This document shows, one piece after another, positions 5,294 to 17,442 of a stretch of 25,974 nucleotides of DNA. Where the stretch lies: the IMG/VR virus record IMGVR_UViG_3300028025_001172, positions 1 through 25,974 of that record; one strand, 5' to 3'. Source of the DNA: a virus. The number at the start of each line of letters is the position of its first letter. The stretch's first letter is position 1. The translations under genes and the position numbers were made by a program. The notes below the pieces were generated by a model, which was not told the DNA's origin, ran no database searches, and saw only the letters and a program-made list of their open reading frames with translations.

Positions 5294-6214
5294 TTAATTA
5301 TTTATTTGTTTAGTTGCGTATGCTTTCTCGTAAACATTTGGTGATGGGTTACTTTGCTCAAAATAGCTCAAGCGTTCCTTATCAAACCAAATCTCTATCA
5401 TTCCGATGTTACCGTTACTTCGTGGTTTAATTTTATTAAAATGTATTTCTGCTAGGTTAAATGTTGGGTCTTGCCGGTGTACTGTTATCATACATTTGCC
5501 CGAGTTAAACCATTCACTACCACCTTTTAAATCATAAGGCACAGGGGGGTTTCTTTTTCCGTTTTCTTTTTCAGTTAGTTTTGGGTGAATAATCGTGTGC
5601 AGGTGTAAATCATTGTCTTCAGCTATCTGATTGCGGTAAGGTAATACATATTCTAAATATTGAGCGTATCCACCATACTCGTTATACGGGTGATTCATAT
5701 CCTTCCAAGAATCGATTGATGCTGTATGTAATTCTCCGTGTTTTTTTAATTCTACTGCCATATCCCAAAATTGTACAGGTGTTAATTTAGCCTTAACATC
5801 TTCTCTTGTAAGCACTTTAAAATGGTTTAAGACCCAATCTATCGCTTGAGTAATTTCTTTATCTTGTATGACGTTTCTGTCTAATGGATTAAAGCTCTTG
5901 CCTGTCTTCTTATTTATCAAATCTGCTATTATTTCGACATTAGAGCCAACATCCGGAAAATAAACTAAATGCTTCCATCCGTAAAACTTTGAGGTATTCA
6001 TCAAACACTCCATTAGCACCTGTGTTTTACCACTCATAGGAAATCCTGTCCAATCGGTGCAGTTACCTAGGCTCATTGAATAATGCTCGTGTAATTTAGC
6101 AAATCCTAAATACTTACCTTTTTGATGATATGTATCTCGATATTTAAATAGGTCAGTAATCACGTCACCGGCTTCTGTAATCTTAAATCCATTTAACTCC
6201 ACGGTGCTTTCCAT
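5294..6214 (-). CDS. DnaB/Twinkle-like replicative helicase (RecA-type ATPase)
   Basis: The 306-residue protein has a Walker A variant GFPMSGKT (57-64) in DWTGFPMSGKTQVLM, a hydrophobic strand then TASIDSWKDM (Walker B-type Asp), TIIHPKLTEK (compare the HPKK motif of Twinkle-type helicases) and DLKGGSEWFNSGKCMITVHR (compare the sensor region with an arginine finger). This order is that of DnaB-family and T7 gp4/Twinkle helicase domains. There is no N-terminal primase or DnaB-like helical domain; the first 40 residues are a short extension. It would unwind phage DNA at the fork. Its start overlaps the replication initiator-like gene by 22 bp. A DNA-pairing ATPase is the main alternative. Confidence 0.78.
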   Translation of the reverse strand: MESTVELNGFKITEAGDVITDLFKYRDTYHQKGKYLGFAKLHEHYSMSLGNCTDWTGFPMSGKTQVLMECLMNTSKFYGWKHLVYFPDVGSNVEIIADLINKKTGKSFNPLDRNVIQDKEITQAIDWVLNHFKVLTREDVKAKLTPVQFWDMAVELKKHGELHTASIDSWKDMNHPYNEYGGYAQYLEYVLPYRNQIAEDNDLHLHTIIHPKLTEKENGKRNPPVPYDLKGGSEWFNSGKCMITVHRQDPTFNLAEIHFNKIKPRSNGNIGMIEIWFDKERLSYFEQSNPSPNVYEKAYATKQINN

Positions 6215-6819
6215 TTTGAGGGTTCGTTTACTTCTTTAATTTCAATTGGTTTTTCCCAAGTTCTTACACAAGCTTTCCAATCTATCATTTTATTCTTACC
6301 TACCATCCATCCTTTAGATGAGTAGAAATTTAAAAATTTGTTTACATCAACTCCGTTTTTTCGCTCTGAACAATACTCAAGAATTTCATTATAAGTAGGC
6401 TCTATAAATATACTTCTTTCATTCTTTTCATTCTTTACATTCTTGTTAGTTGTTAGTTGTTTGTTAGTTGTTTGTTGATTGTTTGTTATTGGTTTGTTAG
6501 CTTCTTCGTTTTCATCTTGGTAACATTCGTATTTACAGATAGTTACTATAGTAAATTGGCTTGTTGATTTTACCTTAATTTCGTTTGTCTTTTCTAACTT
6601 TTTTAAAATGGTTCTAATTGTTTGAATACTTATTCCTGTAGCGCTTGAAATATTACCAAATGAAGAAACAAATTGACCTCTTTCAATATCAATTCCTTGC
6701 CATTTACCTGTTTTATGATTTGCTTTCATTAACATAAATAAAAATAAATGTACTGCTTCAGATTTATTAAACCATTCCCAATCTAAAAACTTCCTGTGTA
6801 TTTTAATCCATCCACTCAT
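6193..6819 (-). CDS. DnaD-like replication initiator / helicase loader
   Basis: The 208-residue protein starts SGWIKIHRKFLDWEWF, the common start of phage replication proteins with a winged helix. GQFVSSFGNISSATGISIQTIRTILKKLEKTNEI is a clear helix-turn-helix. A low-complexity Asn/Thr/Lys linker (about 108-130) separates this from a C-terminal domain (PTYNEILEYCSERK ... FLNFYSSKGWMVGK ... WKACVRTWEK) similar to the DnaD-like helicase-loading domain. It likely binds the origin and loads the helicase encoded directly downstream, with which it overlaps by 22 bp. The linker is encoded by a TTGTTAG-type repeat tract. Confidence 0.8.
   Translation of the reverse strand: MSGWIKIHRKFLDWEWFNKSEAVHLFLFMLMKANHKTGKWQGIDIERGQFVSSFGNISSATGISIQTIRTILKKLEKTNEIKVKSTSQFTIVTICKYECYQDENEEANKPITNNQQTTNKQLTTNKNVKNEKNERSIFIEPTYNEILEYCSERKNGVDVNKFLNFYSSKGWMVGKNKMIDWKACVRTWEKPIEIKEVNEPSKWKAPWS
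6442..6500. repeat. TTGTTAG/TTGTTTG heptamer-like tract in a coding linker
   Basis: Short near-repeats of TTGTTAG and TTGTTTG follow each other on the plus strand; on the coding (minus) strand they encode the Asn/Thr/Gln/Lys linker of the initiator protein. Length change by slippage would alter linker length or frame. Confidence 0.55.
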
Positions 6820-6833
6820 AATCTTAATTTTTA

Positions 6834-6930
6834 AGTAAAAAAAAACCCTCTTTAAATCTACAGGGTCTCACGTCTGTTTCATTAAAAAGGGTAATAATTT
6901 TTAGTGTTCTTATATTGTGAGACCGAACAT
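6834..6930 (-). ncRNA. Putative structured RNA or attenuator with complementary hairpin loops
   Basis: Read on the minus strand, the gap between the DnaA-like gene and the initiator gene holds two hairpins. Hairpin 1 (6929-6905) has the 5-bp stem TGTTC/GAACA; its loop begins with GGTCTCAC (6924-6917). Hairpin 2 (6892-6845) has an 11-bp stem ACCCTTTTTAA/TTAAAGAGGGT with one mismatch, an inner ACAG/CTGT stem, and the apical loop ACGTGAGACC; a nine-base T run follows. GTGAGACC in loop 2 (6871-6864) is the perfect 8-nt complement of GGTCTCAC in loop 1, so a kissing-loop or pseudoknot can form. A TATATTTG box lies just upstream. The product could be a free RNA of about 95 nt ending at its own terminator, or an attenuator controlling the replication genes. 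The pairings are seen; the function is inferred. Confidence 0.5.
6836..6892 (-). terminator. Rho-independent terminator
   Basis: The 11-bp stem (one mismatch) at 6845-6855 and 6882-6892 is followed on the minus strand by nine T residues. It would end transcription coming from the DnaA-like gene or from the local TATATTTG box, and so limits read-through into the initiator and helicase genes 15 bp further on. Confidence 0.65.
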
Positions 6931-6953: not shown

Positions 6954-7343
6954 TTAATGATTTAAGTTATTATAATTTAAATACTGATTATTTTTTAAAC
7001 GGCATTGAATAATAGATAAATCATTCATTGATTTGCAATTGTGAATGTCATCAATAAGATTGCGCTGATGGAATACTATTTCTACTCCGGCAAATTCTTT
7101 TTGTAGCTCCATCGTATCAAGTAAATATAATTCGTCTTTTTGTCTCTCGTAAAAGTCAGCCATTGCCATTCCGTAAAGTATGGTAGAATGGTTAAGGTTA
7201 AACATCTCGCCTATTCTCTTGTATATTATTCCGTGTTTACGCAAGATTCCAAATAAAAACCATCTCCTGTGTACTATGTAACGTGTTCTACATTTCTCTC
7301 TTAAATCTTGCTCTTCGATAATCTGTTCTATTCTTTCAATCAT
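6954..7343 (-). CDS. Stand-alone DnaA domain IV-like DNA-binding protein
   Basis: From the ATG at 7343 the protein has 129 residues. Residues about 20-60 (RYIVHRRWFLFGILRKHGI, then YKRIGEMFNLNHSTILYGM) match the DnaA C-terminal DNA-binding domain: a helix, the basic turn, and the GxxFxxxHST signature that contacts the DnaA box. The AAA+ part of DnaA is missing, so it cannot act alone as an ATP-driven initiator. It may mark the phage origin or titrate host DnaA sites. I prefer the ATG at 7343 over the in-frame GTG at 7376 because it overlaps the preceding stop as ATGA (7340-7343). Confidence 0.7.
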   Translation of the reverse strand: MIERIEQIIEEQDLREKCRTRYIVHRRWFLFGILRKHGIIYKRIGEMFNLNHSTILYGMAMADFYERQKDELYLLDTMELQKEFAGVEIVFHQRNLIDDIHNCKSMNDLSIIQCRLKNNQYLNYNNLNH

Positions 7344-7486
7344 AATTTCTCTACTTTTAGTATTAGTTGTGGCCACATAGCCATTTGCATTATTGCGTGT
7401 TCTCTATCTAGTGCCTGTAGTATTCTGATGGCTATTCGTTTTTTACCACTTTCAAAATAATTGTAAGTTACTTTATATCTTTTCAT
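7340..7486 (-). CDS. Small basic protein of unknown function (48 aa)
   Basis: The frame starts MKRYKVTYNYFESGKKRIAIRI and continues with a helical ALDREHAIMQMAMWPQLILKV stretch. The beginning resembles a two-stranded beta element rich in Lys/Arg. Its ATG is preceded by a CTAACC leader, it begins within the last 14 bp of the preceding gene, and its stop overlaps the DnaA-like start as ATGA. The coupling on both sides is the main evidence that it is real. No family is recognised; it may be a DNA-binding partner of the next gene. Confidence 0.6.
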   Translation of the reverse strand: MKRYKVTYNYFESGKKRIAIRILQALDREHAIMQMAMWPQLILKVEKL

Positions 7487-16730: not shown

Positions 16731-17442
16731 GATTACAGTTGAACAATTTATTGAGATATCTGAGATAGACAAAGAACAGGGGGCTTATTACTATAATACT
16801 GAAGTGCTTTCTATTATATGTAATGAGCCTACTGACGTGATTGATAATCTTGATGTAGATGAGATGTTTAAGATAGTTAAAGAATGCAAATGGGCGTTGT
16901 CTCAGCCATCTAATAAATACAAGTCAGAGCTTATAGGTATGAAGGTAAAGCCATTTAATAAACTTTGTCTTTATGAGTACATTGATTTAGATTATTATTT
17001 TACAAATAACTACATTTCTAATCTTGCAAATATTTGTGGCATTCTATATAGACAAACAAAGATTAATGAATGGGGTGAAGAAATTATTGAGCCTTATGAA
17101 TACGATTGTACTATCAGAGCTGACAAATTTCTAGACCTTCCAATTACAGATGTTTATGGAATCATTAGCGAGTTCTTAAAGTTCAGAGAAAACTTTTTAA
17201 AGACTTACCAAAACTTATTTCAAGGCGAAGAGCTACCGGAATTAACAGCAGAAGAGAAAGCAGAATTAACACCGGAAGAATTAAAAGAGGAAGAGGAAAA
17301 TAAGAAAGATTCTAAGTGGTCTTGGGAAAGAATGATATACGGATTGTGTAATAATGACCTTACAAAAAGCGATAAAATTGGAGGCCTTCCCCTTACTTAT
17401 GTCTTTAATATGATGGGTATGAAAAAAGAGCTAGAGATATAG
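16705..17442 (+). CDS. Tail assembly chaperone-like protein 2, inverted gene
   Basis: From the ATG at 16705 the protein has 245 residues and starts MYLPKQWSEITVEQFIEISE. It has the paralogous first domain, then YEYIDLDYYFTNNYISNLA, a low-complexity acidic segment (ELTAEEKAELTPEELKEEEE) and a conserved-looking end (WSWERMIYGLCNNDLTKSDK then GGLPLTYVFNMMGMKKEL). The first gene ends 26 bp inside it, so they are coupled; an in-frame TTG at 16672 is a less likely start. Its stop at 17442 abuts the stop of the minus-strand gene at 17443. The function as a chaperone of the tape measure is inferred from position and family memory. Confidence 0.65.
   Translation: MYLPKQWSEITVEQFIEISEIDKEQGAYYYNTEVLSIICNEPTDVIDNLDVDEMFKIVKECKWALSQPSNKYKSELIGMKVKPFNKLCLYEYIDLDYYFTNNYISNLANICGILYRQTKINEWGEEIIEPYEYDCTIRADKFLDLPITDVYGIISEFLKFRENFLKTYQNLFQGEELPELTAEEKAELTPEELKEEEENKKDSKWSWERMIYGLCNNDLTKSDKIGGLPLTYVFNMMGMKKELEI

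Follow-up and report, generated by a model that had tools for sequence, protein, structure and literature searches.

RNA I and RNA II of ColE1, which are linked to replication and encoded on opposite strands, recognise each other via fully complementary hairpin loops, and the CI RNA of satellite phage P4, a small RNA in the leader of the replication operon, controls premature transcription termination; after processing, CI RNA targets complementary leader segments in trans. The c4 antisense RNA of phages P1 and P7 pairs through its loops with the ant mRNA near the ribosome binding site, and the OOP RNA of lambda is a short terminated RNA that lies beside the replication initiator gene and is antisense to cII (PMC12197685). 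In the Salmonella prophage Gifsy-1, one promoter yields both a terminated small RNA, IsrK, and the read-through mRNA orf45-anrP, which encodes an antirepressor, and IsrK activates this read-through mRNA in trans (PMC4825925). The locus described here carries a member of an RNA family of about 90 letters, found in phages of flavobacteria and their relatives, that appears not to have been described or catalogued previously, and we refer to it as the kissing-loop RNA. Bacteroidota are a major phylum in water and gut, and few regulatory RNAs are known from their phages. The design is unusual as well, in that a long-range kissing helix holds the apical loop of an intrinsic terminator.

We searched the window, i.e., the whole stretch of DNA analysed, a viral record of 25,974 bases whose minus strand carries nearly all genes, with Rfam 15 (4227 models, including isrK and C4) and obtained no gathering-level match. 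The best sub-threshold matches of the element were RsaE (21.3, where 79 is needed) and PyrG_leader (20.3, where 65 is needed), and Rfam 15 gave no match at the element in five relatives. A literature search, incomplete in its coverage, returned no report of the kissing-loop RNA and none in the published infection transcriptomes that were found. The preliminary description had named no known family with this form, and the Rfam result agrees with it.

The likeness to each described system is partial. The architecture of a terminated RNA plus read-through is compatible with that of IsrK, and in the Tenacibaculum phage Gundel_1 the gene after the kissing-loop RNA also encodes an antirepressor; however, IsrK pairs with the downstream ORF, whereas the kissing-loop RNA has its conserved complement internally, and the isrK model does not match it. 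Like c4, it is a phage RNA with complementary loop sequences that is encoded with a phage operon; with P4 CI RNA it shares the small size and the location in a replication operon leader. For both of these RNAs the loop complement lies elsewhere on the target transcript, whereas the exact 8-mers of the kissing-loop RNA, GGTCTCAC and GTGAGACC, have no further occurrence anywhere in the window outside the RNA itself; moreover, no Rfam model matches, and, in contrast to P4 CI RNA, the transcript ends at its own intrinsic terminator with both partners aboard. Fully complementary loops recall ColE1, in particular the two 7-nt loops of a divergent variant (L026/L052, described below), but here both loops reside on one molecule; on the opposite strand no partner family emerged, the only signals being weak shadow matches (L059/L060, 22.9 bits). 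As with lambda OOP, the RNA is short, terminated, and located beside a replication initiator gene, but it has sense orientation and does not overlap any gene.

All parts of the window copy are on the minus strand. It lies between a gene for a small protein with a DnaA domain IV-like HTH (6954-7376; Bac_DnaA_C, Pfam PF08299, E 1.3e-6, 28.8 bits, slightly under the 31.5 cut-off) and a gene for a DnaD-like helicase loader or replication initiator (6193-6819; phrog_2514, E 1e-31). A -7 promoter box, TATATTTG, of the Bacteroidota type TAnnTTTG (6942-6935) precedes the RNA, with no conserved -33 box, and the RNA as a whole comprises about 90-98 nt (6934-6837, with the 3' end placed in the U run). 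Hairpin 1 (6905-6929) has a stem of TGTTC (6929-6925) and GAACA (6909-6905), and its loop holds kissing segment 1, GGTCTCAC (6924-6917), followed by AATATAA (6910-6916), which corresponds to the near-invariant columns ACAYYATA of the family. A single-stranded linker of 12 nt, CTAAAAATTATT (6893-6904), whose family form is conserved in the alignment, leads to hairpin 2 (6845-6892), the terminator, which is built of stem 2, an internal loop, and stem 3 (ACAG/CTGT) and exposes kissing segment 2, GTGAGACC (6871-6864), in its apical loop. The U run of the intrinsic terminator consists of nine T (6845-6837) and is followed by an A-rich translation initiation region (6820-6836), which places 17 nt between the T run and the ATG of the loader gene. 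Thus, every element that the preliminary description had listed (the box, hairpin 1, the terminator hairpin, and the nine T) is present on the minus strand, and the two loops are indeed perfect 8-nt complements.

The minimum-energy fold of the window copy consists of exactly two hairpins, with both kissing segments unpaired. This single sequence provides weak to moderate statistical evidence: its fold energy is unremarkable and, taken alone, not significant (z = -1.38), and loop-loop complementarity over 8 nt arose in 6 of 200,000 loop shuffles, a figure that refers to loops picked after the fact. Because a single sequence gives such weak evidence, we fetched relatives through both flanking genes, and in most of them the layout is preserved although the letters differ. 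With the window excluded, 11 relatives served to train a covariance model, R1, on nested stems only, leaving out the kissing pairs. R1 matched the window copy over its full length (1-93; window 6934-6842) at 70.7 bits (E ~3e-10), and about 70 other copies were found in the fetched loci. IMG/VR was scanned with a pattern comprising the linker, stem 2, and UGAA, without the kissing segments; at least 120 stretches were returned, about 117 of those 120 match R1, and more than 190 copies in IMG/VR phage contigs match the covariance model.

Over all four helices, 98.5% of the cells are standard pairs, compared to 67.7% after shuffling and at most 43% when the partners were slid; these cells come from related sequences, and for their independence we rely on the slide control, the large number of versions, and the occurrence in unrelated phages. 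Stem 1 is paired in 99.1% (all 5 of its pairs covary), stem 2 in 99.8%, and stem 3 in 100%, the latter two also with covariation. For the kissing helix alone, measured in 38 diverse sequences, 96.7% of the cells are paired versus 68.9% after shuffling and 26-47% with slid partners, and changes on both sides occur at 6 of the 8 pairs. The matches listed, after removal of duplicates and one opposite-strand shadow, include 129 distinct copies, and at least seven consecutive kissing pairs are found in 129/129 and at least eight in 126/129 of them. These 129 copies carry 23 versions of the kissing sequence (e.g., GGTCTCAC, GGCTAGAC, CATCCGAC, CAATCGAC, and CCTTCGAC). Because neither the pattern nor the model ever scores the kissing pairs, their conservation is an independent test of loop complementarity. 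Taken together, the relatives keep both the stems and the complementary loops, with compensating changes in each, and the kissing-loop phage RNA with its own promoter and terminator that had been proposed from one sequence is strongly supported by covariation in more than 100 distinct relatives. We consider the RNA structure, including the kissing helix, near certain, and the function discussed below is an inference.

The 5' part of the family consensus reads TAWATTTG, 4-6 nt, stem 1 (5 bp), a kissing segment (8 nt), ACAYYATA, the second strand of stem 1, and a linker of approximately AAAGGAATTATT (12-18 nt); the 3' part continues with stem 2 (~9 bp), UGAA, stem 3 (4 bp), two nt, the second kissing segment, the second strand of stem 3, GGAU, the second strand of stem 2, and the T run. 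UGAA and GGAU form a symmetric internal loop in which tandem G.A pairs are possible, and the window copy has the form UGAA/AGAU. In phage phi18:3 (NC_021794, 3076-3174, minus strand), the UGAA and GGAU strands are exchanged, which suggests that the loop may be a symmetric structural or binding motif. A divergent form is present at the same place, directly upstream of the loader gene, in the three phage contigs L026, L027, and L052; it has two fully complementary 7-nt loops (CCC-GATGCAG-GGG and GGG-CTGCATC-CCC) and escapes both models, R1 and R2, and its assignment relies solely on position and anatomy. Mean pairwise differences amount to 0.41 (kiss), 0.52 (stem 1), and 0.42 (stem 3), and incompatibility-type diversifying selection on the kissing loops is unsupported, as the kiss varies no faster than the other stems. 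A kiss that changes at about the pace of the other stems fits a structural role rather than a diversifying specificity. The earlier comparison with copy-number control by antisense loops stands as an analogy only, given this pace and the absence of a second loop target in the window.

Of 119 distinct upstream regions, nearly all retain a -7 box of the type TA(T/A)ATTTG, and no -33 box is conserved across them; RNA-seq of Flavobacterium johnsoniae likewise confirmed the -7 motif but not the -33 motif (PMC7366714). Since the box lies 4-6 nt ahead of stem 1, transcription is expected to start near the first base of the stem. At the other end, a T run of 5-9 is found in all IMG/VR family members, and the two cultured phages, Gundel_1 and phi18:3, have a weak U run. 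Among the matches listed, all 126 IMG/VR copies with enough sequence have an ATG 0-21 nt after the T run that opens an ORF of 30 or more codons. Genes of 60 or more codons begin within 25 nt of 77% of the RNA terminators versus 16% of 77 other terminators on the same contigs, and the median distance from the terminator to such a gene is 19 nt versus 194 nt. There is no room for a promoter between the terminator and the start codon, and the downstream genes must therefore be reached by read-through. The layout is that of an attenuator or leader, in which a promoter, a structured RNA, a terminator, and a start codon follow one another with no intervening promoter. With respect to translation, A at positions -3, -6, and -12/-13 helps initiation in F. 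johnsoniae (PMC6847099). A Shine-Dalgarno-like AAAGGA in the linker was considered and dropped, as the window and L059 copies do not have it and Bacteroidota do without Shine-Dalgarno use (PMC6847099).

Upstream of the RNA, about 100 neighbours are DnaA-like genes. Varied small genes, some of them possibly nuclease-like, replace the DnaA-like gene in L103, L146, L156, L177, L212, and their relatives, and the RNA and the downstream gene remain. Downstream neighbours are mostly replication proteins, either immediately or beyond one small ORF, and these are non-homologous: a DnaD-like loader, a DUF6291/Phg_2220_C initiator-like protein, a phrog_11233 initiator, and a primase-like protein of unassigned family (L171, L201). 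That the RNA stands repeatedly ahead of unrelated replication-starting genes suggests that it may be a general means by which phage replication is metered. Other downstream genes are not initiators, namely a ParB-methyltransferase (L135/L211), HNH or GIY-YIG-type genes, and, in Gundel_1, an AntA/KilAC antirepressor. The helicase-loader gene of the window holds tandem 11-bp repeats, TTGTTAGTTGT (4.6 copies, 6443-6500), which are candidate origin iterons by analogy with lambda O.

Of 15 cultured phages surveyed, mostly of Bacteroidota, only Gundel_1 and the Cellulophaga baltica phage phi18:3 (E 7e-7 with model R2) have clear copies; in phi18:3 the RNA is followed by a small ORF, about 50 nt from the U run, and then by a DnaD-like loader. 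The Gundel_1 copy, from a phage of Tenacibaculum sp. AHE14PA, lies at 33901-33999 of NC_062747. Direct testing is possible, since these two phages are in culture. The hosts of the metagenomic phages are presumably Bacteroidota as well, judging from the promoter type and the two cultured relatives. When the bacterial chromosomes of 84,980 species genomes were scanned with a pattern, 50 stretches came up, and the model matched none of them. A model search of about 790 Flavobacteriaceae and phylum genomes, which was insensitive as 10 candidates were scored per genome, gave one match (L299), located on a small Flavobacteriaceae MAG contig with a phage-type phrog_11233 initiator downstream. The RNA is absent from L007/L048, close relatives that share the flanking genes, and likewise from L002 and L009, which have a related arrangement; its absence between the same flanking genes in close relatives indicates that the element is dispensable and is an optional modulator. 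In another RNA-less group (L016-L020), the repeats TTGCGTCAT / GACTTGTCAT occur about 100-280 nt past the DnaA-like gene, in the gap that the RNA would occupy, and look like an iteron origin.

The kissing-loop RNA probably controls the output of the phage genes that it precedes, most often those that start DNA copying. The reading that we favour, with moderate confidence, is that of a promoter-driven leader: termination would yield a stable small RNA, and the leader would meter the read-through that reaches the following genes. A host-type promoter of the RNA's own would start the transcript, which would fold co-transcriptionally into two hairpins locked by the 8-bp loop-loop helix, with hairpin 2 acting as the intrinsic terminator. 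The majority of transcripts would end in the U run and yield a stable RNA of about 90 nt, and the read-through fraction, together with transcripts from the upstream gene, would serve as mRNA for the neighbouring gene or operon, the start codon of which follows after about 12-21 nt. The kissing fold would set the efficiency of RNA polymerase release and, with it, the amount of initiator made; the element would thus be a valve ahead of early genes, mainly replication-initiation genes, with the small RNA made too. The alignments directly show the fold with its kissing helix, the conservation of the -7 box and of the U run, and the constant place ahead of start codons; we infer where the transcript starts and ends, which fraction reads through, how the kiss affects termination, and that the purpose is to control initiation. 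The preliminary description had offered either a free RNA or an attenuator, and the layout suggests that one unit may yield both the terminated RNA and the leader. The kissing helix and the terminator stems share no nucleotides, and one compatible fold accounts for all covariation; since the kiss can form alongside stems 2 and 3, it is the terminated state whose fold is conserved. No mutually exclusive antiterminator fold is visible in the conserved structure, and the element is therefore not a classical attenuator switch. Counting against a valve are those downstream genes that are not initiators, the weak U run of Gundel_1 and phi18:3, and the dispensability of the RNA.

A serious rival, compatible with the leader valve and tentatively entertained here, holds that the element is an autonomous trans-acting small RNA, which would bind a protein of the host or phage, an RNA of the host, or a second copy of itself in a dimer; the neighbours would simply get read-through, and the nearness of the downstream genes would reflect compact genomes. 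Its own promoter and terminator, its presence in unrelated phages ahead of unrelated genes, and its cassette-like gain or loss between close relatives all fit such an RNA, and the single-stranded core (ACAYYATA, AAAGGAATTATT, and UGAA/GGAU) is conserved in sequence, as a binding surface would be. IsrK provides a precedent for a terminated small RNA and a read-through mRNA that arise from a single promoter (PMC4825925). However, the start codon is far closer than after other terminators on the same contigs, which is true of 126/126 copies, and Gundel_1 and phi18:3 keep the structure despite their weak U run. It is also conceivable, though unlikely, that the RNA is a self-sensing replication governor, the free RNA kissing an identical leader reciprocally (loop 1-loop 2' and loop 2-loop 1'). 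If this were true, the RNA concentration, and hence the phage genome number, would feed back on initiator production, giving a copy-number-like control with sensor and target in one molecule that is reused with non-homologous initiators.

Three further readings have little probability. An origin-associated RNA, whose transcript or promoter would activate or prime phage replication from an origin in or near the initiator gene, would suit the position between the DnaA-domain-IV-like gene and the loader gene, the possibility that the 11-bp tandem array of the latter, at 6450-6500, is the origin, and the short repeats in the equivalent gap of the RNA-less L016-L020. We consider it improbable: the terminator precedes the repeats of the loader gene by about 340 bp, so that most transcripts would miss them, in several members the RNA and the initiator are separated by other genes, and the OOP RNA of lambda turned out not to be a primer (PMC12197685). 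More doubtful still is a 5' structure that acts as a stability or translation element by protecting or presenting the read-through mRNA, with termination being incidental. Hairpin 1 would indeed be at the extreme 5' end, and the element is always immediately upstream of an A-rich start region, but the T run of 5-9 in all IMG/VR members would be needless for a pure stabiliser. Finally, chance hairpins or a small peptide gene are hardly credible. The non-significant fold energy of the window copy would agree with chance, yet compensatory two-sided changes are found in every helix and pairing collapses when the partners are slid; one frame is open through 31/100 copies, as a peptide gene might show, but frames are closed in 69-95% of copies, the length varies by single bases, and no start codon is conserved, and a peptide gene was rejected.

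Two minor observations were made on the contigs themselves. Another recurrent terminator, GGGCGGCCATAAAACGCCGCCCTTTTTT, is found 22-23 nt ahead of a gene in several contigs (L108, L133, L140, and L180). On the 47-kb contig of L090 (G018), there are two copies of the kissing-loop RNA, at 17062 and 45537; they are 28.5 kb apart, which is about one genome length, and the contig is probably a joined or concatemeric assembly.
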